Below, in pieces: positions 19,508 through 64,000 of a DNA stretch of 64,000 nucleotides; the first letter of the stretch is position 1; each line of letters begins with the position of its first letter. Source of the DNA: Blepharisma japonicum (Eukaryota > Ciliophora > Heterotrichea > Heterotrichida > Blepharismidae); NCBI GenBank assembly GCA_949751835.1, contig CATKHK010000017.1, positions 372,001 through 436,000 of the forward strand, in the 5' to 3' direction. The position numbers and the translations under genes were made by a program. Under the pieces are notes generated by a model. That model did not search any database, was not told the origin of the DNA, and saw only the letters and a program-made list of their open reading frames with translations.

Positions 19508-20069
19508 ATATAGAAGGAAAAAAGCAATAAAAGAATTTAATATTAAGTTAAGATAATATGAAAATGCAGAGAAGTTAAAATTATGGCAAAATGGAAAATT
19601 CTTATTGAAATTAGGCTTTTAAAATCATTAAGTATTGATAAATTGATTATTAGCTATAAGTTTTTGAGAATTATAATAAAACGATAACATCAGAAAAAAT
19701 TGTATTAATATAGAATATCATTTTATTTATTTATATTTAGCAGCTTATGTGTATATATGGAAAAATTACTACTGAACATTAAACAATAATAAATGCTATA
19801 TCATAAAGCTATCAATTAAAATATGAAATTTTCCCATAATTCGGCTTATAAGAGTTTCAAATTTTAAAGTTTAAACCCAATAGAAAATTATTATAAATTC
19901 CAAAGTTCTAATAAATCTAGATTCTCATAATATTTTTTTCTTTACTTTTTAAATCAACTATCTTAAATTCCCAAATTCGATCAAATTTCTTTCCATTTGA
20001 GTATTTTTGAAAATTTTGTCACCTTTTCTTTGTGAGTTCCATTTTTACTGGATAATTTACTTTAAAATC
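19508..20069. other. AT-rich upstream region of the H+-ATPase gene
   Basis: 562 bp, very AT-rich, likely holding the ATPase promoter. No specific motif can be supported. Confidence 0.45.
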
Positions 20070-22958
20070 ATGAGTGATGAAGACTCTCCAATAGATGAAT
20101 ACGAAGTCATCATAAAAAAGCAAACGAGCCGCACTTCAGAAGATAATGAAGGATCTGATGAAGATGAAAGTGACGTTAAAAAAGAAAAATTGAGACTTAC
20201 TTCACAACAGCTGGAAGAAATTAAAACAGGTCCGAATGGGCTTAGTAGTGATGAAGTGAGAGAAAGACTGGCAAGGGATGGACCGAATGAACTTCCTGAA
20301 AAGAGGGTCAACCCTTGCTTAAAGTTCTTGTCTTATTATTGGGGCCCGATGCCGATTATGATTTGGATAGCGTTTATCCTTGAAGTAATCAGGCTATCGT
20401 ATATAGATTTCTGTGTCCTTTTCATTCTACAATTTTTTAATGGATTCGTAGGCTGGTATGAAGAAAAAAACGCAGGCAATGCCATCGATGCGCTAAAGAA
20501 AAATTTAGCTCCGAAGGCAAAAGTCAAAAGAAATGGGGAATGGGAAGTAATCTTATCAAGAGAACTAGTTCAAGGAGACAGAATTAACATTAAGCTTGGA
20601 GATATCATTCCTGCAGATAGTGTCTTAGGCCCTGGATATGCAGAAATCGATCAGTCTGCGTTGACGGGTGAATCATTAGCCGTTACAAAATTTGAAGGCG
20701 AAATGGTATATCAAGGCTCAGTTTGTAAAAAGGGAGACTTAGAAGCAATTGTAGCGGCAACTGGCGCAAATACATTTTTTGGAAAAACTTCTACTTTAGT
20801 AGGCCAAGCTCAAAGTAAAGGAAACTTCCAAAGAGTCATCTTAAAAGTTACAGGAGTCCTTATGGTCGTTTCATTAATCCTAGTGACCATAATCCTAATT
20901 GTAGTCCTCACCAAAGGAAACAATTTTCTCGAGACTCTCTCCCTTTGTGTAGTTATCCTCGTTGCTTCCATTCCTATAGCCACACAAGTGGTATGCACAG
21001 CCACAATGGCAGTAGGAGCCCATGCACTAGCTAAACGGCAAGCTATTGTAAGTAAATTAAGTTCTATAGAAGAGCTTGCAGGTATGCAAATCTTATGTAG
21101 TGATAAAACAGGCACTTTAACGAAAAATGAGCTAACAGTAAAGCACCCTATTGCACTAAAACATGTAAAACAGCAAGAAATATTTGTTGTTGCAGGACTT
21201 GCGGCTAAAAGAGACCCTACATCTCAAGATGCTATTGATAAATGTATCACTGAATATGCGGTGAAGTCTATGAAATTGACATTTGAGAATTATGAAGAAT
21301 TAGAATTTATTCCTTTTGATCCAAGTAATAGGAGGACTGAAGCAACAATTAAGGATAAAACGACAGGGGATGTATTTAAATGCACCAAAGGAGCTCCACA
21401 AGTCATACTGAAAATGTCAAATGACCAAAGCATAGCTGACGAAGTCGCCAAAAACATCGAACAAATCGCTTCAAGAGGCTACCGAACCCTAGGTGTCGCT
21501 AAATCTACAGAAGAAGGAGTATGGGAAATGCTTGGGCTAATTCCACTATACGACCCTCCTCGAGACGACACCAAAGAAACCATCCAAAAAGCCAAACAAA
21601 TGGAAGTTGGCGTCAAAATGATAACAGGTGACCAATTAGCAATCGCAAAAGAAACAGCCCGTCTCTTAGACCTCGGTGACAAAGTTTATAACTCAGAATT
21701 CCTAACCGGCAATGAAAATATCATAGAAAAAGAAGTCGTGAAATCTTTAATCCAAGATGCTAATGGCTTTGCCGAGGTTTTCCCTGAACATAAATTTGGG
21801 ATCGTCAAAATTCTTCAAGAAATGGGAAAACGTGTAGGCATGACTGGAGATGGCGTTAATGATGCCCCTGCCTTAAAACAAGCTGACGTCGGAATTGCAG
21901 TAGATGGCGCAACGGACGCTGCCAGAGCTGCTGCAGATATCGTTTTAACAAGCCCAGGTCTTTCAGTCATTATTGAAGCTATATATAGAGCTCGAAAAAT
22001 ATTCCAAAGGATGAATAATTATTGTATTTACCGTGTAGCCTGCACAGTACAGCTGCTTGTATTTTTCTTTATTACAATGTGTGCTATAAACCCTCAGAAC
22101 TTTGACTGTGGCGTAAAATCTCCAACTGATGATTATTGTGATAAAGTCCCTAATACATTTTCCCTTCCTGTTATTGCAATTGTATTAATTACTGTACTTA
22201 ATGATGGGACAATAGTGTCTATTGCTTATGATAAAGTAACTGTGTCGAAAAAACCTGAAAAATGAAACTTGACGTTGATGTTTTTTAACTCCTGTACGCT
22301 AGGGGCAATAGCTTTGGTTTCTTCAGTTACACTGGTGCTGTTGATGCTGTCTAATATGGATTATTATGACTCTTTTGCATTTTTCAAAGCTTTTGATATT
22401 GATGCATTTAAGTATGGAGAAATTTTGACTGCATTGTATCTAAAAGTGTCAATATCTGATTTTTTGACACTGTTTTCAGCTAGGACTAGCGGCTGGTTTT
22501 GGACGAGGATGCCGAGCAGAATATTGATATTTGCATTTATTTTTGCATGTATGACTGCAACATTGTTTTCTTGCTATTGGTGGCTGGATTTTACAGATAC
22601 AAGTGGAAACATCCCTAATATGAAATCAATATCATGAAGATTAGCTGGATGGATCTGGGGCTATGATATAATATTTTTTATTATACAAGATGTAGTCAAA
22701 GTTTTTGAGCTGAAAATGGTTGAAAAGTATTACAAAATGCAAGGAAAAGAAGTTGGATATTCTGGATCTTTATTGTCTGACAGTTTTCTTACTTTTAAAA
22801 CTGGCACAGTTCAAAATATTGTTAAAAGAGCTACTTCTTCTATTATGAGCCAGAATTCTTTAGTAGATAATCATGCTAGCAAAGCAGTTTCTTCAGTCAT
22901 GAGCAAGCAATCCTCAATGGCACACAATGGAAAAGCAAGTAAAAAGACAGCCCATTAG
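20070..22958 (+). CDS. plasma-membrane-type H+-ATPase (P3A P-type ATPase)
   Basis: Pumps protons out of the cell using ATP. 962 residues with family landmarks in order: an acidic cytosolic N-terminus, GLSSDEVRERLARDGPNELPE, two N-terminal spans, the TGES actuator motif, spans 3-4 with VASIPIATQVVCTATMAVGA, the phosphorylation site CSDKTGTLTKNEL (Asp345), KGAPQ, MITGDQLAIAKETARLL, and MTGDGVNDAPALKQADVGIA. Two TGA codons (Trp732 in PEKWNL, Trp856 in SISWRLAGWIWGYD) lie in the C-terminal membrane region and join three pieces. The C-terminal tail (~100 residues) is Ser/Lys-rich and could be regulatory. Start ATG 20070 (MSDEDSP) is preferred to an upstream non-ATG extension. Ends TAG. Confidence 0.95.
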
Positions 22959-39878: not shown

Positions 39879-42572
39879 TTAAAATTCTTCATCCCAATTT
39901 GCAGGAATCTGTGCTTTTGATTTGCTTGGCTGCATTGGAGTTTCGGCTGAAATTTCATCCCTCAAAATATTATCAAGGAAATTTTTCTTCGACTTCGCTG
40001 CCTTTGAAGCTTCAGACGTTAACGACCTCAATTTCGGTACATAAGGTGGACTAATCCCTCTTGAAAACAATTTTTCCCATTTAAATCCTGACAAAAATTT
40101 GTGTTTTTTCAGCTTAGAAATGCTTCCACCAGTCCTATACGCTACTTTTACGCTCAGGAGTTGTGTAATAATTGATTTCAAAGACAAAGTATGCTTAATA
40201 TTTGTAGGGAAAACTAAGTTATGCTCGATAACTTTTTCATAAACTTTATAGGTATCTTCTTCGTTTTCACCGAATGGGACAGTTCCGAATACAAACTCAA
40301 AAATCATGACACCTAAGCTTCACCAGTCTACAGCAGAGTTGTATCCGTTGCCCATGATAACTTCAGGTGCCATATAATGTGGAGTTCCTACCGTTGTATA
40401 GGTACGGCCGTTTACAATTTTAGCAATTCCAAAATCAATGAGTTTTGGGTATCCTTCTTCGTCGATCATAATGTTTTCAGGTTTTAGGTCTCGATATATA
40501 ATTTCTCTTTTGTGGAGATATTCAAGAATTACTACCAAACAAGCTGTATAAAACCTTGCATCATCTTCTTTTAATAAACCTAATTGTCTCAAAACATCAA
40601 ATAAATCAATTCCTCTTACATATTCCATAAGGAAATAAATTCTTTTATTATCTTTAAATGTCTTTACAAGCTTTACTATCATTGTGTGGTCTAATTGCAA
40701 CAGAATTTTTCTTTCAAGAACTAGACTTTCATATATCCCATAAGCTACAATTTTAGCTCTTGGGACTGTTTTTAAAGCGTAAAACGCCCCTTTTTCTTTG
40801 TGGGCCATTAAATATACATTTCCAAACATCCCTTTTCCAAGTGGTTTTATCATAGCAAGCTGATCCAACATTATAGTGTTATCTTGTAGCTCAATCCTTT
40901 TAAGTAGTTGTGTCCTCATACTAAAGTCTATAATACTTTCAAAGTCATTTTTTTCTAGTGTCCAGCACGTCACATTGCCTTCAGCTACAACTGTTGCGCT
41001 TCTTCTTTCATTGAATAAAATTGATCTTTCTCCAAAATAATCGTGTATAGTAAGAGTCCTGACCTTTACGTTTTCTTTGTAAATATTCACCCTTCCTGTT
41101 TTCACTATATAGAGTGTATCCCCTTCTTCGTTTTCTTGTACAATTGCTTGTCCATCCCTAAAATCAACTATTCTTAAAGCATGTATCAAAGCTTTCAGCC
41201 TCTCTTTAGGCAAGTTTCGAAGAAGCTGGACCTGCTTTAAAACAACCAAAGCAGCGTTATTATTTGTAGCAGGCACAACGACTCCGCCTAAGCATTTTTC
41301 GAATTCCTCTTTAGAGATTTGGGCTATATCCACTTCAGAATCTGCCACATAATTTTCTTCATAATTTTGGGTGCAAGTTTGGTTAATTTTGTCATCTCCT
41401 ATACATGCAAAAGTTTCGTAAACCCCTAGAGGTCCTCTTACCCTCCCTTTCATAACTATACACAATTTAGCACCTTTCACAGTATTTTTTGAGACTACAA
41501 CTTCACCTGGGCTGAATTTTGCGATTTTCATAGCGTCCATCATCTGTTGGGATTGGTCTTTTGTAAGGTTTTTTAAAGATTCGCTTTTTTCTATAGCTTT
41601 TTTTTGGATATTTCTATATATAACTTGTTGCAGATTCTCCCCTAAAGCTTCAAGTAAGCTTCCTCTTCCTATACACAGCACTTTTACAGCCCCCACACAT
41701 GTAATTGTAGCTGTTCTTTTTGAATTGTACAGCAAAGCTTGCTCACCAAAGAAATCCCCTTTGACCATCTGCCTGATTTCAACCCCATCTTTTGTACATG
41801 TAACAACACCTTCTTTTATTATATAAAATAAATCTCCAACTTCTCCTTCTTTCACAATTGTCTGTCTGTTATCCCATTTTTGTGTTGTAATTGAAGCAAG
41901 TAATGCTTCTTTCTGTTGGGTTGTTAAAATTTCAAAAATCGGGACACTATTGATAAATAATTTATTTTCTTCATAATTCATCCTATTTACAGCTTCGACT
42001 GCTTGTTTAAAGGTCATTCGGTCTACCCCTCACAAGGTCGATTTTTGTGCTGATTTAACTGTGGCTGTCCTTGGTTTGTCATCTAATAGGGCAAGTTCTC
42101 CAAAGCTGGCACCTGGCCTAAGCATGTTCTGTCGAATCCCGTTAACAATCACTTCAAGCCTGCCTGTGGCTAATACAAAAAAATATTTCCCAGGCATTCC
42201 TTGTTGAGTTATAACCTCGCCTGAGTTAACTGAAAAATGCTTCATTTGGTCTATAATATGCCGTTGACTATCTTCATCAAGATTCCTTAGGATAAAATGA
42301 CTATTCAGTGCATTATTAATCATCCCTATATCTTCGCTAGTTTTAGGACGCGCTGTTATGACGGCTGTCACGGCTTCGTTGACTTCTTTTACTTTTTGCC
42401 AAGTCACAGCAGCTATTTTTGGTTTTGATTTTCGTTGGGCTGAGGATTTTGGCTCCTTTGTTTCTTCGTTACCTCCTTCAAAGCTTATAATAGGCTTTGA
42501 AGAAATCGGTTGACTGGAGTTGCTGGGATCGATTATTTCTTTTTGGAAGCATCCATTGCAAGCGTTACCCAT
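39879..42572 (-). CDS. PKG: cGMP-dependent protein kinase (PKG) with four cNMP-binding domains
   Basis: Ser/Thr kinase activated by cGMP, 897 residues across two TGA codons (Trp181 and Trp752, the latter in VDWWSLGVM). The N-terminus MGNACNGC fits N-myristoylation plus palmitoylation. Four cyclic-nucleotide-binding domains precede the kinase: FGELALLDDKPRTATV (canonical A), FGEQALLYNSKRTATI (B), a degenerate third with no PRTA-type motif (around GPLGVYETFACIGD), and FGERSILFNERRSATV (D). The AGC kinase domain has LGKGMFGNVYL, YRDLKPENIMID, DFGIAK and TTVGTPHYMAPE. This four-domain layout with a degenerate third matches apicomplexan and ciliate PKG. Ends TAA. Confidence 0.95.
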
Positions 42573-45296: not shown

Positions 45297-46610
45297 CTAA
45301 TTTTCATCATTTTCTCCCCCCACTTGAATTCTCACTTGAGTATCTTCTGTGTCTTCTATTCTCTGCAAATTATCAGGAAATTCCCCTGATAGCACAGATG
45401 GGCTGGTAAAATTCTGCATCTCGTTAGATATATTAAATCCAAAAAATGGAGAGTCATTTCGAATTAAATTTGGCAAGTCAGAAGCAGGTGAATTTAAGCC
45501 ATTATCACTTTGATTGAAATTACTGTTATTTGCATTATTACTGTGATCAGTTCCATTGCATGGACTATTACCTCAAATATCAGGGTTTTGTAAAGGTCCA
45601 CTTTGGCTAGTAGAATTCCCAGGTGGGCTATAAGAATGCGTGGTATTTACAGATGTATCATTAGAGTTACCTGTATTGTTGGATGACCCATTTTGAGGAT
45701 CACTTGAATTTGATGACGGAGAGCTCCCATTTGATTCTGTAGAGTTTATTTCTGGTTGTTGATTAGTAGCATTTGAACCTGAATGACTAGTAGATGAGCT
45801 ATCATTTAAATTATTTTCGGAGCTTGAGCTAGAATTTGTAGAATTTAAAGAAGAATTTGAGTTGTAATTATCAGAAGTAGAGTTGCCAGCTTCAGATGAA
45901 TTAGAAGCATTATTACTAGCTTGAGAAACATTTGAAGGATTTGTATTATTTGAATCAGAAATATTTGACTGAGATCCATTTTCAGTACAATTTTGCTGAG
46001 AAGAATAAGCATTAGAATCGTTTGATGATGATGAAGAAGAAGATTGGTTTGATGACTGATTGCTAGTCGTAATATTTTCGGAGTTTGATGAATTATTTTG
46101 CAAGATTGGATCTGATGCATTATTATTGGGATTATTTTTTTCTTGACTATTTGATTGATTAGTGCTGGAAGAATTTTGTGAAGTTGAATTTGATGACTTT
46201 GAAGAACTGTCACTTTCATTACTTTGCTGACTATTTATTTTATTGCAATCAGTATTGTTTGTGTTCGAGCAGCATGCAGGGCTTGCGTGATGCCTTGGAG
46301 CATTATTGCAATAGCAATGACATCGGCAAAGATCAATATTTTCGCATTCACAGCTGCATGTACAATTTCCAGGACCTCAAGTTCGTGTTGCAATCAGTCT
46401 CAAATTATCTCCTTGATCACTGTTGCTAATATCAGTAGAACTATTGTAAGAATCAACATAATTACCATTTCCTTCAGTAAACCCTAAATCATGATCGCAA
46501 GTGCATATATTTCGTTCTAAAAGAGGGTCCACTACAAAATCATCAAAATTATCATCTTTTCCAAAAGTTAAACTTGCTGTGTATAGAAAAATAAATAGAA
46601 AAATCTTCAT
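45297..46610 (-). CDS. secreted Ser/Asn-rich protein with Cys cluster
   Basis: 437 residues from ATG 46610, joining three pieces across two TGA codons (Trp in ATRTWGPGN and NPDIWGNSP); ends TAG at 45297. A signal peptide (MKIFLFIFLYTASLTFG) is followed by a CxC start (NICTCDHD), then a dense Cys cluster (NCTCSCECENIDLCRCHCYC). Next come ~260 residues almost entirely Ser, Asn, Thr, Gln and Gly, full of N-x-S/T sequons, and a less biased C-terminal ~90 residues. No membrane or GPI end. Likely a heavily glycosylated extracellular or cyst/cortex protein (inference). Shares design with the gene at 48809-49645. Confidence 0.8.
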
Positions 46611-48808: not shown

Positions 48809-49645
48809 ATGAAGCTATTAGTTCTGATAATCCTCGCAGCCTCCAGCTTTGCTTATGCTCAAGGAGATATGAAAGGAAGAAATCTTCAAGACAGTCCAGC
48901 CCTTTGTTTATGCCAAGGCAACCAGTCTTCAGTAGTCGTAAATAATTCTTCTGGAGTTCAGACTCAGACAAGAACAAGAATTAATCAAGGAGGATGTAAT
49001 TGCTCTTGCATATGCAACTGCACATCGCCATCTAATTGTAGCTGTGATTGTTCATGCTTCAATGGTTCTGCAATTAATGTAACTAATCAGACCAGCCAAC
49101 CTAATCAAACCAATCAAACCAGCCAAAATGTTTCTTCACAAAATCAATCACTTTCTAATCTAACTTGCAATTGCAGCTTACCATCTGCTAACCAAACCAT
49201 ACGAAATACTTCAAATTCCTCACAGTTTATAGTGATAATCACTAATCAATCTGAGCTTGGAGATCTTATATGCGAATGTAACCAGACTGGAGGAAATCAA
49301 AGTGGCGGAAATCAATCAAATGCAACTGGCCCTCCACAAGTAGTAAGAGTTAGTGCAAATGATACGGAAATAGCGTGTCTATGCAATATAACTATTATTG
49401 AAATAAATATGACGAATATTAGTGAAACCAATAATCAAACTGTTATTAATAGGAACAATTCCACAAATATGAGTTCTTCATGCCATTGTAATGTTAGCAT
49501 ACTGAATTCATCTATGGCTCATATTAGCAGCAATCCAAGAACACTTATAGATATACCTGAATTTATGAAAATTAAGAAAGATTTCCAATATCCTGGCAAT
49601 TTCTTGAATGGAAGAAAAAGAAGACTACTAAGCAGATTTCCCTAA
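48809..49645 (+). CDS. secreted Cys/Asn/Thr-rich glycoprotein-type protein
   Basis: 278 residues. Signal peptide MKLLVLIILAASSFAYA, then a Cys-rich block (GGCNCSCICNCTSPSNCSCD) and repeated CxC pairs through residue ~225. Between them is Asn/Gln/Ser/Thr-rich sequence with well over a dozen N-x-S/T sequons. The last ~35 residues are basic (NGRKRRLLSRFP) and could be a processing site or cytosolic-type tail. No membrane span after the signal. Related in design to 45297-46610 (opposite strand), with the protease gene between. Probably extracellular or surface-coat material. Ends TAA. Confidence 0.8.
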   Translation: MKLLVLIILAASSFAYAQGDMKGRNLQDSPALCLCQGNQSSVVVNNSSGVQTQTRTRINQGGCNCSCICNCTSPSNCSCDCSCFNGSAINVTNQTSQPNQTNQTSQNVSSQNQSLSNLTCNCSLPSANQTIRNTSNSSQFIVIITNQSELGDLICECNQTGGNQSGGNQSNATGPPQVVRVSANDTEIACLCNITIIEINMTNISETNNQTVINRNNSTNMSSSCHCNVSILNSSMAHISSNPRTLIDIPEFMKIKKDFQYPGNFLNGRKRRLLSRFP

Positions 49646-55291: not shown

Positions 55292-56143
55292 ATGTTATCC
55301 AGAGCCAGGCTGATTACTCGTTTCGTAACAACTCAAGCAGCCCCTCAAAGTGAGTTATCAGAGGCAACACGAAGATATTGGAACAGAGTTGGAGACTGGT
55401 ACCTCAAATATAACTATGAAAATTCCACAAAGATGTACGAAACCATGGCAAGTTTCCTCAGATTAGAAAAAGCCAAAAAAGTTCTAGATGCAGGCTGTGG
55501 TGCTGGCAATGGGGTTCAAGCAATGAAAAAGTTCGCTGGTCCAAATACTAAATTCACCTTAGTCGACATTAGTGATTACTTTGTTCAAAAAGCTAGAGAA
55601 TCAAATCCAGGGGTAGAAGTTTTCCAGCAGGATGCTGAAGCTTTGTCTTTTAATGATTCATCCTTTGATGTGTATATTTCCAATGGCCTCTTAGAAATCG
55701 TAAAGAAGCCTGATTGGGTCGTTAGTGAAGCTTATAGAGTATTGAAACCAGGCGGAGTTGCATCATTCTCTATTTATGGAAGAATGGGTATCTGCAACAC
55801 CTTAAGAATTTACAAATCAATCAGAAACAAGCTCGGAATCAAACGTGGAACCGCTGAGCCTAAATTTGAACTCGCTGACCCAGAAAAAGTAAAAGCTTTG
55901 GTAAAAGCTGTAGGATTCAAAAGAGCTGTTTATTTCTACGAGCAGTATCATTTCAATGTAATTGAGCCTAAAGATATTTTTGGGATGTATCTAGATAACC
56001 CAGTCTTAAGAGAAGGTGCAACCCAAGTAGGAAAAAGCCACGAATTCGAAAATTTAGTCAAACAAGAGCTGGAAGAAATCTTATTTGAAAAAGAAGAGCC
56101 TCTTATTTATGAAGCATTAGTAGTAACAGCTTATAAAGAATAA
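55292..56143 (+). CDS. class I SAM-dependent methyltransferase, likely mitochondrial
   Basis: 283 residues. The N-terminus MLSRARLITRFVTTQ is a plausible mitochondrial presequence. The Rossmann core shows motif I VLDAGCGAGNGVQAM, an acidic end of strand 2 (FTLVDIS), DAEALSFNDSSFD (motif II), then SNGLLEIVKKPDWVVSEAYRVLKPGG, typical of the UbiE/arsenite methyltransferase-like (Methyltransf_11) class. Substrate unknown. ATG to TAA, no TGA or intron. Confidence 0.88.
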   Translation: MLSRARLITRFVTTQAAPQSELSEATRRYWNRVGDWYLKYNYENSTKMYETMASFLRLEKAKKVLDAGCGAGNGVQAMKKFAGPNTKFTLVDISDYFVQKARESNPGVEVFQQDAEALSFNDSSFDVYISNGLLEIVKKPDWVVSEAYRVLKPGGVASFSIYGRMGICNTLRIYKSIRNKLGIKRGTAEPKFELADPEKVKALVKAVGFKRAVYFYEQYHFNVIEPKDIFGMYLDNPVLREGATQVGKSHEFENLVKQELEEILFEKEEPLIYEALVVTAYKE

Positions 56144-56256
56144 CTTATATTTCTCATAAAAATTAAATTCCAAAATTCTCAAGCTATTCTAGAAAAATTT
56201 CAAAAATTAAGATATCGCTGAGAAGAAATTCCAGTAATACCGAAGTTTTTTATAAA

Positions 56257-56964
56257 ATGGAAGTATTGATGTCACCACCGAATTTCCCACAAGAAAAATC
56301 CATAAAAATGTATGAAAAGACATCGGGGCATAGTTCTTATCAAGACTCATTACTGTTTATTAGAGATATAGCTATTATGCTTCGATTGTCCCAGGCGTGT
56401 GTCGCTACTGCTCAATTTTATTTTAATTCAGCAAATATCAGTTTATTTGCTATAAGTAGCGACATTTCTTCTTATGATACCCTTTTACTAGCTACATCTT
56501 GCTTATTTCTAGCAGGAAAAGCTGTAGAGCAGCCAAGACATTTAGAGTTGTTTTGCAAAGTTTTTTATGATCGACGTTCTGCTATTCAAATAGCTAAAAA
56601 CCCAAGGCTTCAAATTCCTCCAATGTCCCAGGCCATGCTTGAGAAATTCAAGCAAAGTATAATATATTACGAGTTCATTATTTTAAATACCATCGGATTT
56701 AACACATATATCCCACTACCTTATTCCTATATCACAAATTTCGTAAATTTAACTGATTTGGACGTAAAAACGAAAGATAGTTTGCTTAGATGTGCAAATA
56801 GCTTTGCTAATGATAGTTTTAGAAGCTTAGTTGCGCTAAAAAAAGATGCTGAAAATATTGGGAGGGCCTGTATATTTTTAGCTTCAAAATATTTACAAGT
56901 TGATACTAGCATTTCAGCAGACCCTGAAACGATAAACTTTTTATTAGAATGATATAATAATTAA
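56257..56964 (+). CDS. cyclin (T/K/L-type)
   Basis: 235 residues with a double cyclin fold: FIRDIAIMLRLSQACVATAQFYF, then DTLLLATSCLFLAGKAVEQPR (the Lys-Val-Glu signature of transcriptional cyclins) and YEFIILNTIGFNTYIPLPY, second fold with CIFLASKYLQV. Such cyclins pair with CDK9/CDK12-type kinases acting on Pol II. One TGA (56950) near the end is read as Trp, giving a tail WYNN and TAA at 56962-56964. A decayed copy of its 3' third sits at 58369-58551. Confidence 0.88.
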
Positions 56965-56967
56965 TGT

Positions 56968-58332
56968 TTATATTTGAATTGACCCATCTCCCCAGATATC
57001 GTCCATTTCATCCTCATCAATTCCACTTTCCCTTTGGTCGTACTTATAAAATGCTCTTGCATCACTAAGTATTAACACAATTGTATCGCCAACTCCACAG
57101 TTAACTAGGTCTTCTAGGGTGATTGCATAAAGACATTTAGGTTTAGCCATATCCCAAATTTCGTCTTTTACATCGTCGACCTTGAACCCAAATTTTTCTT
57201 TAGACTCTAGCTTCGTTATTATTGATCTCAAAAACAAATTAACCACAAAAGTGTCAATCGCCCCTTTTTTATATACATCAAAAATCTTGAAAAAATATTG
57301 CAGACTTGGCATTGTTTTTGTATTTTCCATGGCTAATACAAAGTCAAGAAAGGTTTTGTAGTCCATTTCTCCTTCAAAAGTTTGGTATTCTTCAAATAGA
57401 CGGTCTACAAAAATGCTTGTAAGTCCGCCTGAGTAGCGTGTTAATTCTTGTTTTCTAAGCATCCCATTTCTATCTAAATCAAGCCTTAGATAATGGTCAT
57501 ATACCCTCAATGTATATTGAACAGAGAACCAATTTTGAGCAGCTTCTTCAGGGCTCATGCTTTCTTGTCTCAGTTCGTAAAGCTCAGCCAAAATTGGAGA
57601 AGTCAGCATATCTTTTATCCAAATTCTCCCTGTTTTTTTAGGATCCAAGAAAAAGAAAAATTTTCTTACAGCTGTAATCACATAAAAAGGGTAAAAATTT
57701 TCTTGTAGGCTTGATAACTGTGCAAAGGAAGGAATTAGCTCAAAAATAAAGTTTTCTAAGTCTTTTTCTTTCAAATATCCATATCCAGCGCTATCATATA
57801 GAGAAATCTGTATTCTGGTTTGGTGTAAATTTACTTTTCTTACAATATAGTGGAAAAAGGGAACAATTTCGATTCTTCCGTATTCATCACGGTCGCATTT
57901 TAGAAATACTGAAGGTTGGAAGAATTGCCTGTATTTCGGATGCAATTTGTTGGCGACTTGGCAAAATTGGTCATAATTCATTCTTTCGGTACCGTCATCG
58001 GGGAAACTAGTATTGCTTTTCAATAAGTACCATAATTTCTCTAAATCTTCTTTATCTAGGACTTCAGCTGATTTATTATGAAGAAATCTAGTCCTAGCTT
58101 CTTGTCTGAGTTTTAAATATAATGGATTTTCTAATTGAGGCTTTTTGAAAAAGAAGCGAGGGATTTTTTTAAAGCTTTCATTACGTTTCTTTTCTTCTTC
58201 TTTTTCTTCTTCAAGGAGATTTAAAAAAGCAATGTCAACTTCTCTATCTAATTAGATTTTACCATTTTCAACAGCTGATTTGCGAGGTTTGTCTGCAAGA
58301 TATGATTCTAATAAGCTTACTCAATTGACCAT
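56968..58332 (-). CDS. PP2A regulatory subunit B'' (TON2/FASS-like), copy 1
   Basis: Targets protein phosphatase 2A to substrates; TON2-type subunits act in cortical cytoskeleton and division-plane control in plants. 449 residues. ATG 58332 reads MVNW, the Trp coded TGA; a 15-nt intron (58248-58262) follows VEN. Signature B'' sequence: YDQFCQVANKLHPKYRQFFQPSVFLKCDRDEYGRIEIVPFF, then EF-hand-like DLDRNGMLRKQEL and MDYKTFLDFVLAMENTKT. The stop is 3 nt from the convergent cyclin stop. Copy 2 lies 252 bp upstream and is nearly identical. Confidence 0.92.
58248..58262 (-). other. 15-nt intron of PP2A B'' copy 1
   Basis: GTAAAATCTAATTAG on the minus strand; splits the Asp codon (G|AT) after VEN; identical in copy 2. 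Confidence 0.92.
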
Positions 58333-58368
58333 TTTATATTGAAATTGTTTGAATTATTCTTGAATTAA

Positions 58369-58551
58369 GCTTAGATGTGCAAATAGCTTTCTAAAGACAG
58401 TTATTAAAGCTTAGTTGCGCTAAAAAAGATACTGAAAATTTTAAGAGGGACCTGTATATTTTTAGCTTCTAAATATTTGTAAGTTGGTATTAATATTTCA
58501 GCTTACTCTAAGACATAAAACTTTATTTTAGAATAATATAATAATTAATGT
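58369..58551 (+). pseudogene. decayed 3' fragment of the cyclin gene
   Basis: Aligns by eye with 56784-56966, the end of the cyclin gene, with scattered substitutions and small indels; stops and a frame change (TTTCTAAAGACAG against TTTGCTAATGATAG) destroy the frame. It lies between the two PP2A B'' copies and marks the duplicated unit. Confidence 0.85.
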
Positions 58552-59916
58552 TTATATTTGAATTGGCTCATCTCCCCAGATATCGTCCATTTCATCTACA
58601 TCAATTCCACTTTCCCTTTGGTCGTACTCATAAAATGCTCTTGCATCGCTAAGTATTGAAACAATTGTATCGCCAACTCCACAGTTAACTAAGTCTTCTA
58701 GGGTGATTGCATAAAGACATTTAGGTTTAGCCATATCCCAAATTTCATCTTTTACATCGTCGACCTTAAACCCAAATTTTTCTTTAGACTCTAGCTTTGC
58801 TATAATTGATCTCAAAAACAAATTAACCACAAAAGTGTCAATCGCCCCTTTTTTATATACGTCAAAAATCTTGAAAAAATATTGCAGACTTGGCATTGTT
58901 TTCTTATTTTCCATAGCTAATACAAAGTCAAGAAAGGTTTTGTAGTCCATTTCTCCTTCAAAAGTTTGGTATTCTTCAAATAGACGGTCTACAAAAATGC
59001 TTGTAAGTCCGCCTGAGTAGCGTGTTAATTCTTGTTTTCTAAGCATCCCATTTCTATCTAAATCAAGCCTTAGATAATGGTCATATACTCTCAATGTATA
59101 TTGAACAGAGAACCAATTTTGAGCAGCTTCTTCAGGGCTCATGCTTTCTTGTCTCAGTTCATAAAGCTCAGCCAAAATTGGAGAAGTCAGCATATCTTTT
59201 ATCCAAATTCTCCCTGTTTTTTTAGGATCCAAGAAAAAGAAAAATTTTCTTACAGCTGTAATCACATAAAAAGGATAAAAATTTTCTTGTAGACTTGATA
59301 ACTGTGCAAAGGAAGGAATTAGCTCAAAAATAAAGTTTTCTAAGTCTTTTTCTTTCAAATATCCATATCCAGCGCTATCATATAGAGAAATCTGGATTCT
59401 GGTTTGGTGTAAATTTACTTTTCTTACAATATAGTGGAAAAAGGGAACAATTTCAATTCTTCCGTATTCATCACGGTCGCATTTTAGAAATACTGAAGGT
59501 TGGAAGAATTGCCTATATTTCGGATGTAATTTGTTGGCCACTTGGCAAAATTGGTCATAATTCATTCTTTCGGTACCGTCATCGGGGAAACTAGTATTGC
59601 TTTTCAATAAGTACCATAGTTTCTCTAAATCTTCTTTATCTAGGACTTCAGCTGATTTATTATGAAGAAATCTAGTCCTAGCCTCTTGTCTGAGTTTTAA
59701 ATATAATGGATTTTCTAATTGAGGCTTTTTGAAAAAGAAGCGAGGGATTTTTTTAAAGCTTTCATTACGTTTCTTTTCTTCTTCTTTTTCTTCTTCAAGG
59801 AGATTTAAAAAAGCAATGTCAACTTCTCTATCTAATTAGATTTTACCATTTTCAACAGCTGATTTGCGAGGTTTGTCTGCAAGATATGATTCTAATAAGC
59901 TTACCCAGTTGGCCAT
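58552..59916 (-). CDS. PP2A regulatory subunit B'' (TON2/FASS-like), copy 2
   Basis: 449 residues, tandem paralogue of copy 1. It starts ATG 59916 (MANW), with Trp coded TGG where copy 1 has TGA. The 15-nt intron at 59832-59846 is identical. I count eight amino-acid differences from copy 1: Val2Ala, and seven within the last ~120 residues (Thr to Lys in MENTK, Thr to Ala, Leu to Ser, Lys to Glu, Glu to Val, Gly to Glu, Ser to Pro). Both copies look intact and functional. Confidence 0.92.
59832..59846 (-). other. 15-nt intron of PP2A B'' copy 2
   Basis: GTAAAATCTAATTAG on the minus strand, same position and sequence as in copy 1. Confidence 0.92.
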
Positions 59917-60109
59917 TTTATATTGAAATTGTTTGAATTATTCTTGAATTAAGCTTATCCTAAGTTACAGAAGCATTACTGCAACTTTTAGTATAAATTT
60001 TATAAATTATCTGATGAATATAAGATATTAAAGGCTATTAAAATATGATATATGAAAATGCTTTATATAGAAAGAAAATTTAATCAATCTTTTTAATAAA
60101 TAATAACTG

Positions 60110-61339
60110 ATGAATGGAATAGAAGAAAGTCCTAATGGAACTAAAAAAGATCCAGCAGTGTAATTATAAATTAGATCGTTAGATAAGCTTAAAAAGCAAA
60201 ATCAGACTTTAAGAAACAACCTTAAAAATCTAAGTCAAGCACTTGATGAAGCATTAGAAAAACAAGCCAAAACTAATAACCCCAAAGAAAACCCAGAGGC
60301 TACCGAATTTCCTGAAAATCCTGAAGACAACGGTGTATCCCTTGCAAGAATCAAAAAATACAAAAATCAGATTTTTAGCATGAAAAAAGAACTAGAAGGT
60401 AACAACGATATGAGAATCGCTGACCTTGAAAACGAAGTCTCCTACTTAAAAAAAAGAATCCAAGAATACGAAGACGAAAATGCTGCTCTGCTGAAAATCG
60501 AGCAAGAACAAAATGAAGCTGCTTCATCCAATCTAAACTCGCTTCAAATAAACTCAAATAAAGTCTATTCTTTAAAAGAAGAGTTAAAATCCTTAAAAGA
60601 AACACACAAAGATCTACTTTTAAAGCAAAAACAAGGAGAAAAAACACTAAAAGACGTTCACGAAAAATATGTGAACTTAGAAGAATTTTGCAGAAAAACA
60701 AAAGCATTAATAAGGCAAAGGAAATTAGAAGAAAATCTTCCGCCACTACCTGAGGTAACTGATGAAGAAATAAGAGAAATTGAGGATAAAATAAAGGAAA
60801 CGGAAATATTAAAAAAAGAAGAAGAAGGAAGTTTGAAAAAGAAAATAAAAGAACTGGAAAAACAGATAAAAGCTAGTAAGGATAATATAAATGATTTGCA
60901 GAGCAAGCTCAAAGAAAAGGATCAGGAATGCAGAGCAACAATGCTAAAAATTAAAGAACTTAGAAGAGCTGTGAGGCAATACAAGTTAAGCCCTATTAAT
61001 AGGTCTACAAATACAGAGGTAGCACCAAGATCAAGCACATTGAGATCTTCTGAATCGAAAATTGAAATAAAACGACCGGTAGTTGCAGAAAGATACGGAA
61101 GGGAAATAAATCAGTATAAAAGTACAAAATCAAACAGAAAGTCAAGCAGTCAAGATCGAGATAATTTGAAATTGACCCCATTTTCTGAAGAGAATTCAGA
61201 TGGGATGATGTTTTTGAAGCCTTCATCTTTTGGGGATATGACGCTTATGAAGCCTTCATCTTTTGGAGATGTGACGCTTATGAAGCCTTCATCTTTTGGG
61301 GATATGGGAAGTTCGTTTCTTACTCAAGATCATCAATAA
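60110..61339 (+). CDS. coiled-coil protein with 11-residue C-terminal repeats
   Basis: 404 residues. ATG 60110; a 15-nt intron (60160-60174) contains the only stop, and splicing gives KDPAVSLDKLKKQNQ. Long coiled coil over residues ~17-310, ending with ELRRAVRQYKLSP. A Ser/Arg-rich linker follows, then three tandem 11-residue units (KPSSFGDMTLM type) coded by 33-bp repeats, then SSFLTQDHQ. Structural protein of unknown family. Ends TAA. Confidence 0.82.
60160..60174 (+). other. 15-nt intron
   Basis: GTAATTATAAATTAG; splits a Val codon (GT|A) and removes the in-frame stop. Confidence 0.88.
61217..61315 (+). repeat. 33-bp tandem repeat, three units
   Basis: Units start with AAGCCTTCATCTTTTGG at 61217, 61250 and 61283; first two nearly identical, the third diverges at its end. 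Confidence 0.85.
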
Positions 61340-61459: not shown

Positions 61460-62015
61460 TTATTTATATTTCACATCATTTTCAATTTTAGCATACTCTA
61501 GCTCAAAATTCGCTTTTTTTTGCTGAGTCCAATTAATTTCATAATCAAAATATAAGTAAGTTCCTTGTTCTTTTTCTGGAGAAGTTGCTTTAGGAGGGCC
61601 TTGTCTTTGAAACCAAGTTTGATATTGCATATGGTAAATCCAATCTTTGGATTTTAGTAATTTACTGGCAAGAAATTGCTGATATGTCCCATGCTGATGA
61701 TAAAATATAAAGAAAAGGGCATCTTGGTCAAGCTTTTTATACTGCTCCAGATCATTAAATAGAGGCCTTTTAGGAAAGCTATTATGACATTGATAAGGTG
61801 ACTTCAAAATCTGAAGTTGAGACTTTTTTCTTTCATCTGGTCTTATTCCATATCTGCATGCTGAGTCTAGAGCTTCTTTTGAGTCTCCTGAGCTAATTTT
61901 TATATAATCCTAAATTCGATCATACTTCAGCAGTATCTTCTTGCTCTTCTGAATCCTCTTGGTTTCTTTCCATTTTTTGACTTGAAAAATCTGAGAGCGA
62001 GGGTTTATCAATCAT
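61460..62015 (-). CDS. NOT-box protein of the CCR4-NOT complex (NOT3/5-like)
   Basis: CCR4-NOT deadenylates mRNA. 179 residues. ATG 62015; a 16-nt intron (61910-61925) is removed, giving QEDTAEDYIKISSGD. The C-terminal ~100 residues are a clear NOT2/3/5 box: KLDQDALFFIFYHQHGTYQQ, LLKSKDWIYHMQYQTWFQR, KATSPEKEQGTYLYFDYE. These match NOT3/NOT5 better than NOT2. The long N-terminal coiled coil of NOT3/5 is missing, so this is a compact, box-only form or a split gene. Ends TAA. Confidence 0.9.
61910..61925 (-). other. 16-nt intron of the NOT-box gene
   Basis: GTATGATCGAATTTAG on the minus strand; removal joins DTAE to DYIKIS and avoids a downstream TAG in the unspliced frame. Confidence 0.88.
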
Positions 62016-62405
62016 TAAGATCTATTGGTATTAGTGATAGGTATGAAAATAAAACAAAAAGTGCTAATAAAAATGCAGATATAAGTTACTATAATTTTTA
62101 AAATTTTTTTAACTAATTTCTATTAATGTTATATTTGGTGATATTGAATAGCCACAAAAAAGAAAAAACATAGCATAAGGATATTAAGCAAAATTTGGAA
62201 AATTTTGGTTTTTTTAGATAATATTACAAATTTATTTAGGAATAACATATTAGCTGCTGGGTGCAAGTAGATTATTTGTAATTATAAATTATTCTAACTT
62301 CAATTTATAAAAGCTAATCAATTTTCTTTATGATTTATAGTGATTGATATATAAGAAAATTTTCTGTTTTTTCTAATAAATTCATAGATTAAAAGTATAA
62401 ATAAA
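62016..62405. other. AT-rich spacer between divergent genes
   Basis: 390 bp, likely shared promoter space for the NOT-box and Rpt6 genes; no motif supported. Confidence 0.45.
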
Positions 62406-63587
62406 ATGTCAGGTCATGCTGGTCTTAAGTCTTACTATCTTTCTAAGATAGAAGATCTGACTCACAGAGTTCAAGCTAAAATGTCTGAAGTAAAACGCCT
62501 TGAAGCCCAGCGCAACGAAATGAACAATCAAGTCCGCAATCTTCGTGAAGAAATCCAGCTCTTGCAAGAACCCGGCTCATATGTAGGTGAAGTCGTGAAA
62601 GTTATGGGCAAGAAAAAATGCCTCTGTAAGGTAAATCCTGAAGGAAAATTCGTAGTAAATATAGCTAAAGAGATTCCGCTTGATAAACTGACCCCTAACA
62701 CTCGTGTCGCATTAAAAAGTGACTCATATCAGCTTCACAAGATTCTTCCCAGCAAAATTGACCCTCTAGTTAGCTTAATGAAGGTTGAAAAAGTGCCTGA
62801 CTCTACCTATGACATGATCGGAGGCTTAGACCAGCAAATAAAAGAAGTCAAAGAAGTCATTGAGCTCCCTATTAAGCATCCAGAAATATTTGAAGCCTTA
62901 GGCATTGCGCAGCCTAAAGGAGTTTTATTATATGGTCCACCAGGAACAGGAAAGACTTTATTAGCAAGAGCTGTTGCCCATCATACTGATTGTACATTTA
63001 TCAGAGTTTCCGGAGCTGAATTGGTCCAAAAATACATAGGAGAAGGCTCCAGAATGGTAAGAGAACTCTTTGTGATGGCTAGAGAGCATGCACCTTCTAT
63101 TATTTTTATGGATGAAATTGACTCTATAGGTGGCACAAGAATATCCGGGGAGCATGGAGGTGATTCTGAAGTACAAAGAACTATGCTTGAGCTTCTTAAC
63201 CAATTAGATGGATTTGAAGCCAATAAAGACATCAAAGTAATCATGGCCACCAACAGAATTGATATACTTGATGAAGCTCTATTAAGACCTGGAAGAATTG
63301 ACAGAAAAATCGAATTTCCAAACCCTGACGAAGACGCCAGAGCTCAAATCTTAAAAATCCACTCCAGAAAAATGAACTTAACCAGAGGAATTGACTTCAA
63401 AAAGGTCGCAAGTAACATGAATGGTGCTTCAGCTGCAGAAACAAAAGCAGTTTGCACAGAAGCCGGAATTTTTGCATTGAGAGAAAGAAGAGTGCATGTG
63501 ACTCAAGAAGATTTTGAGCTTGCTGTAGCAAAAGTGATGAAAAAAGATACAGACAAGAATTTATCATTTGCTAAGTTATGGAAATAA
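62406..63587 (+). CDS. RPT6: 26S proteasome AAA-ATPase subunit Rpt6 (PSMC5)
   Basis: Unfolds substrates at the 19S base ring. 393 residues, close to the animal and yeast length. N-terminal coiled coil ([20 protein letters not shown]), OB domain ([20 protein letters not shown]), then AAA+: Walker [12 protein letters not shown], pore loop [12 protein letters not shown], Walker B IIFMDEID, second region [22 protein letters not shown], and a C-terminal helix ending SFAKLWK. The IGGLDQQI and [16 protein letters not shown] segments are Rpt6-type. ATG to TAA, no TGA. Confidence 0.96.
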
Positions 63588-63610
63588 GGTAAAAAATATT
63601 CTTTATATAA

Positions 63611-64000
63611 TTAAAAATCGACATCCCAATGAAGAGGTGCAGCTTTAGCTCGAAGTCTCCTGGCATCAATGATATCTTTGCCATCTTCTCGTTTCATATA
63701 TGAAAAAATGTCTTTAGGGTTTCGTAGTTCTCTAGCAATTTCACTATCAATGCTTTCCAGCTTTGGAACATGAGGAGCTGGGATCTGTTTGCCGAGCAGC
63801 CCATCCCAATCTAGCCCTTCAAACCATTGATGCTGCTTAATTGTTTCATATGTCCCTCTCATCGCAGGGGTTTTATTTAACAAATGTTCAATTATAGGGG
63901 CAGCTTCGAAATTTTTCCCTATAAAGCCGGGATAAATGAGTCTTCTTTCTAAGACTTTTTCGTAGATTTTGTATGGATCGTCTTCTTCTTCGCCGAATGG
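63611..64000 (-). CDS. cGMP-dependent protein kinase, C-terminal part (5' end outside window)
   Basis: 129 visible codons, open to the right edge. PFGEEEDDPYKIYEKVL and FEGLDWDGLLGKQIPAPHVPKL match the end of the PKG kinase domain and its C-terminal tail (compare FGENEEDTYKVYEKVI and FKWEKLFSRGISPPYVPKL in the PKG at 39879-42572). Diverged from that gene, so a second PKG family member. Stop TAA 23 bp from the convergent Rpt6 stop. Confidence 0.9.
   Translation of the reverse strand, partial: PFGEEEDDPYKIYEKVLERRLIYPGFIGKNFEAAPIIEHLLNKTPAMRGTYETIKQHQWFEGLDWDGLLGKQIPAPHVPKLESIDSEIARELRNPKDIFSYMKREDGKDIIDARRLRAKAAPLHWDVDF

Follow-up and report, generated by a model that had tools for sequence, protein, structure and literature searches.

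The DNA analysed here, referred to as the window, is a 64-kb stretch of contig C17 (C17:372001-436000) in an assembly of 45.2 Mb and 224 contigs. The genome is that of a Blepharisma-like ciliate: TGA (UGA) is read as tryptophan, 15-bp introns are present in the window (in the B'' gene models described below), and CCCTAACA repeats, which we take to be the Blepharisma telomere, lie at the end of contig C17 and likewise of other contigs (168 matches counted). Several open reading frames (ORFs) of the window lengthen when TGA is decoded as Trp, the one at 20007-22958 growing from 752 to 983 aa.

The features of the locus are collected in Table 1. Because TGA encodes Trp, the intact cyclin gene extends to a TAA at 56962-56964; it is convergent with B''-1, the first of two intact genes for PP2A B''-type proteins, and 3 bp separate the two stops. 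B''-1 and B''-2 are alike in their exon lengths (70 and 1280 bp) and in their 15-bp intron. The EF-hand_13 domain was detected in the exon-2 products of both B''-1 (E 9.7e-07) and B''-2 (E 1e-06), with scores of 28.9 and 28.8 bits against a curated cut-off of 22.6, and residues 135-406 of the 425-aa exon-2 product of B''-1 align to the B'' beta structure PDB 4i5l (E 1.9e-21). Domain and homology are what the two proteins have in common with the PP2A B'' proteins of the PR70-PR72 type (PDB 4i5l and 4i5j). A paralogue on contig C53 is much nearer to PR70 (E 3.8e-98) than B''-1 and B''-2 are, and the B'' paralogue on contig C9 aligns with that on C53, whereas B''-1 and B''-2 stand apart from both and presumably belong to the PPP2R3C/TON2-FASS branch. 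A literature search for PPP2R3C combined with ciliates and PP2A returned no paper. A structure prediction for B''-1 exon 2 from a four-row alignment had a mean pLDDT of 40, too low for use.

Codon 4 is TGA in B''-1 and TGG in B''-2, a difference that is silent under this code. The possibility that this TGA makes B''-1 a pseudogene was ruled out by the lengthening of ORFs with TGA as Trp and by the low dN/dS of the pair. For Blepharisma stoltei, the published genome description also gives UGA as Trp, together with introns of mostly 15-16 bp and a somatic genome of 41 Mb (PMC9942806).

The surroundings belong to a paralogous block of C17 (window positions 55292-56964 and 61463-64000) and contig C55 (L019, L030), which comprises a methyltransferase, the cyclin, the gene at 61463, a proteasome-type ATPase and a kinase. 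On C55, as on C17, the methyltransferase and cyclin genes are adjacent, and the paralogue of the 61463 gene, the ATPase and the protein kinase are nearby. Unlike on C17, the C55 cyclin has no adjoining B'' gene, and the orientation of the methyltransferase-cyclin pair with respect to the remaining three genes is reversed. The window holds two related protein-kinase-like genes (39879-42572, and 63614 to the window end), which we read as candidate cyclic-nucleotide-dependent kinases; similarity of the C55 copy is 46% to the former and 76% to the in-window part of the latter. By eye, we also recognised two neighbouring secreted-looking proteins that are rich in Asn/Ser and have Cys-rich stretches (45297-46610 and 48809-49645), and a short in-frame tandem repeat (KPSSFGDMTLM-like, ~61210-61310) at the end of the coiled-coil gene that is divergent from B''-2. 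The ATG of the coiled-coil gene is probably at 60110 (placed by eye, through a 15-bp intron), and its Lebercilin-like match falls slightly below the cut-off.

Table 1. Features of the duplicated locus (window coordinates)
Feature	Position	Strand	Details and basis
Methyltransferase gene, neighbour of the cyclin	55292..56143	+	Pfam Methyltransf_11, E 2.8e-21; C55 paralogue 85.5%
Intact cyclin gene	56257..56964	+	235 aa, ends ...LLEWYNN and stop, TGA as Trp; Table-4 ORF; Cyclin_N, E 1.9e-07
GCTTA microhomology, left boundary, within live cyclin	56784..56788	+	sequence
Duplication unit 1	56784..58368	none	1585 bp; alignment and breakpoints
B''-1, PP2A B''-type	56968..58332	-	exons 58332-58263 and 58247-56968, intron 58262-58248, 449 aa; gene model
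36 bp ahead of B''-1 ATG, duplicated with the gene	58333..58368	-	identical to 59917-59952
GCTTA at unit 1/unit 2 junction	58369..58373	+	sequence
Dead copy of the 3'-terminal 181 bp of the cyclin gene, between B''-1 and B''-2	58369..58548	+	alignments
Duplication unit 2	58369..59952	none	1584 bp; alignment and breakpoints
B''-2, PP2A B''-type	58552..59916	-	exons 59916-59847 and 59831-58552, intron 59846-59832, 449 aa; gene model
Native upstream region of B''-2, shared with divergent coiled-coil gene	59917..60109	none	sequence
GCTTA, right boundary	59953..59957	+	sequence

Breakpoints and class of the duplication

Units 1 and 2 are about 96% identical: with each unit aligned together with its closing GCTTA, 63 of 1592 columns differ, one of these being merely the end of the cut. 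Such identity across 1.58 kb rules out a chance repeat. The original prediction of two units of 1585 and 1584 bp that abut at GCTTA, with this word at all three boundaries, agrees with the alignment and with the mismatching flanks; its coordinates for unit 2 (58369-59953) ran one base too far, the correct end being 59952. The breakpoints at GCTTA are real because the bases around it differ between the copies (GTTT versus TTAA before it, GATG versus TCCT after it). Homology stops sharply at both outer edges and at the junction, and the junction microhomology is exactly 5 bp. When breakpoint pairs were drawn at random within the window, about 1% had microhomology of at least 5 bp, which supports the predicted microhomology-mediated tandem duplication; the word itself is frequent locally, with 96 occurrences on the + strand of the 64 kb. 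The junction suggests such a mechanism without being proof of it.

Both B'' copies retain the same 15-bp intron; the duplication was therefore DNA-based, and retroposition is ruled out. As GCTTA contains TA, an IES-like origin was also weighed, about three quarters of Blepharisma IESs being bounded by TA-containing repeats according to PMC9942856; it found no support in this locus. A DNA search of the genome recovered both units and the cyclin paralogue on C55, and no third copy of the unit. Likewise, no third close B'' copy was found in a protein search, its four matches being B''-1, B''-2 and two distant B'' genes at 25-26%, and the window has no other direct repeats of at least 60 bp lying at most 6 kb apart.

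Small-scale tandem gene duplications that include a truncated fragment of a neighbouring gene are a known general class. The locus shares with this class the direct repeat, the junction microhomology, the decayed partial neighbour and the intact copies under purifying selection, and it shows no categorical difference. It is unusually clear, since the genes are convergent and so closely spaced and one end of the unit falls inside the cyclin. The tandem duplication is real, clean and ordinary in kind, with a decayed passenger.

Divergence of the cyclin piece and of the B'' pair

The spacer between the B'' genes had been described as a decayed copy of the cyclin 3' end, and this is what we observed: its cyclin match contains one TAG and four TAA codons, and frameshifting indels appear in the alignments. 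With default gaps, the dead piece differs from the live cyclin by 27 substitutions at 179 sites (15.1%) and 3 indels. A gap-friendly alignment, in which cheap gaps recast several apparent A/T swaps as indels, gives 17 substitutions at 175 sites (9.7%) and 11 gap events. When 30 differences were polarised with the C55 cyclin paralogue, 21 could be assigned to the dead branch and 2 to the live one, the other 7 being ambiguous. An origin of the fragment from the C55 paralogue itself was ruled out, as the fragment resembles the live copy, at a distance of 1.5 kb, much more closely.

The view that a cyclin piece was dragged along and killed is correct in that the piece was carried and died, with most differences on its own branch, and it overlooks where the piece now lies, on the upstream side of B''-1 and the downstream side of B''-2. 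The duplication carried just 36 bp of native upstream sequence, so that the dead piece is now the upstream region of B''-1: the 219 bp that separate its ATG from the stop of B''-2 consist of 36 native bp and then the dead cyclin end. B''-2 retains its native upstream region and is adjoined by the dead piece on its downstream side. Judged from this arrangement, most of the B''-1 promoter would have to reside in what used to be the cyclin end if B''-1 is independently transcribed.

Eight of the 449 residues distinguish the two B'' proteins (2, 333, 368, 415, 425, 435, 445 and 446), and 7 of these lie in the last 121 (binomial p = 0.0006, for a boundary picked post hoc), which matches the predicted eight differences with seven in the last ~120 residues. 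Polarising these changes by means of the paralogues was dropped, since only residue 333 gave a hint, being T in B''-1 but K in B''-2 as well as in PR70 and the paralogues on C53 and C9, and this was too weak. At the codon level, 8 replacements at 1083.5 sites compare with 24 silent changes at 263.5 sites (9.1%). The resulting dN of 0.0074 and dS of 0.097 give a dN/dS of ~0.08, well below 1, and purifying selection has surely retained both B'' copies. By section, codons 1-328 have a dN of 0.0013 and a dS of 0.071 (13 silent changes at 192 sites), and codons 329-449 a dN of 0.024 and a dS of 0.173 (11 at 71 sites). Changes were found at 3 of 129 four-fold sites and at none of the 51 positions of the intron plus 5' flank. 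In the unit alignment, divergence is arranged in three steps, namely the dead cyclin piece, then codons 329-449, then the remainder.

The dead piece had been said to have diverged much more than B''. This holds by raw identity, but against silent sites the gap is small or absent, depending on the alignment: the raw comparison of 24/263 with 17/175 gives p = 0.87 in the gap-friendly alignment, and the default alignment gives p = 0.05 (computed at 28/179; counted 27/179). Since the raw silent divergence of 9.1% stands against 9.7% or 15.1% in the dead piece, the contrast mostly reflects purifying selection together with an intolerance of indels.

Probable gene conversion and its rivals

Silent sites of the B'' pair sum the changes of two lineages, whereas the dead piece represents about one. 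Counted per branch, B'' has a silent deficit in the gap-friendly alignment for all silent sites (p = 0.019), four-fold sites (p = 9e-5) and codons 1-328 (p = 0.005), as against p = 0.58 for codons 329-449; with the default alignment the respective values are 3e-5, 3e-8, 4e-6 and 0.07. Transitions alone, without branch correction, amount to 15 at 423 B'' silent third positions versus 16 at 179 sites of the dead piece (p = 0.009), and an unchanged intron and 5' flank would have a chance of ~0.005 at the dead-piece rate. Silent sites of codons 329-449 keep pace with the dead piece, while those of codons 1-328, the intron and the 5' flank lag. Silent sites here are not frozen, because four-fold sites differ by 45-61% in five gene pairs of the C17/C55 paralogous block. 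On account of the per-branch deficit, the unchanged intron and flank and the unfrozen silent sites, partial homogenisation through unequal exchange or gene conversion, with the strongest effect in the parts away from the cyclin edge, appears to be the better reading and a likely one, if not a proven one. Constraint on silent sites, the short intron and the 5' flank could be the source of part of the deficit, and given the raw equality in the gap-friendly alignment the case for conversion then depends on the two-versus-one branch count.

Silent changes show a trend towards the cyclin-proximal end of B'' (one-sided p = 0.024). A boundary scan of the silent sites along B'' found no significant edge (p = 0.53); with the 5' flank and intron included, p was 0.18 and the best split was at codon 72, not 328. 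The scan of all substitutions did place a boundary at codon 328 (p = 0.013), but it includes the seven clustered replacements. The original prediction had left a choice between purifying selection and gene conversion on the first two thirds of B''. Purifying selection surely acted, and conversion probably did too, yet the silent sites do not support the sharp edge.

A single duplication without conversion, in which replacements and indels were purged and silent sites mildly constrained, is a serious contender, with the balance of probability somewhat against it. It would account for the low dN/dS, the raw equality of silent and dead-piece divergence in the gap-friendly alignment, the lack of a significant silent boundary, and the match between codons 329-449 and the dead piece (p = 1.0, computed at 28/179; p = 0.27 gap-friendly). 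The four-fold sites, once two branches are counted, and the intron and flank fit it poorly, as does the freedom with which four-fold sites change over longer times in the C17/C55 pairs.

It is improbable that B'' was not homogenised and that the dead piece instead evolved unusually fast, being selected towards promoter-like sequence upstream of B''-1. The shortness of the native upstream sequence is in its favour, as positions 58369-58551 must hold most of the promoter if B''-1 is independently transcribed, and so is the fall in GC from 0.304 in the live cyclin end to 0.250 in the dead one, towards the 0.19-0.25 of five nearby intergenic stretches. However, drift to intergenic composition requires no selection, and neutral drift would give the same GC fall; a sigma-70 scan yielded 16 sites against 14.9 expected, a result uninformative for a eukaryote. 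An assembly or haplotype artefact, in which two alleles, or else two somatic versions, were assembled one after the other, is very improbable. Somatic ciliate chromosomes are variable, but a clean 5-bp junction with a live cyclin end in one copy and a dead one in the other is not what two alleles would yield. Moreover, the copies differ by ~4% overall and ~9% at silent sites, far above the heterozygosity of B. stoltei strains as given in PMC9942806 (3.08e-5 and 4.67e-3), if this is that species.

Proposed course of events

We consider it probable, with good confidence, that a single microhomology-mediated tandem duplication, decay of the passenger cyclin end, selection on the B'' pair and later partial homogenisation together explain the locus. 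A GCTTA-mediated event (replication slippage, template switching or end joining), which we infer to have taken place in the germline, would have copied a 1585-bp segment once in tandem. This segment ran from within the cyclin 3' end, over the convergent B'' gene, to 36 bp ahead of the B'' start codon. The live cyclin was left whole because the break retained its 3' end in unit 1, and the second cyclin end, having no start, then decayed. Both B'' genes remained under purifying selection, and later on gene conversion or unequal exchange probably homogenised the B'' region in part, mainly over its first two thirds. More tentatively, and with the odds somewhat against it, the dead cyclin end may be more than debris and may have turned into upstream DNA that bears the promoter of B''-1 and, for B''-2, into its 3' region. 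The two nearly identical proteins would then be expressed differently, and their C-terminal tails would be starting to specialise, with conversion holding the remainder identical.

The locus represents a compact natural experiment, in which a single duplication carries a near-neutral clock, in the form of the dead cyclin end, alongside a gene pair under selection. It is also a warning that raw divergence contrasts overstate conversion as long as indels, purifying selection and the number of branches are left out of account. In a gene-dense ciliate genome such as this one, units are hard to duplicate without cutting neighbouring genes.
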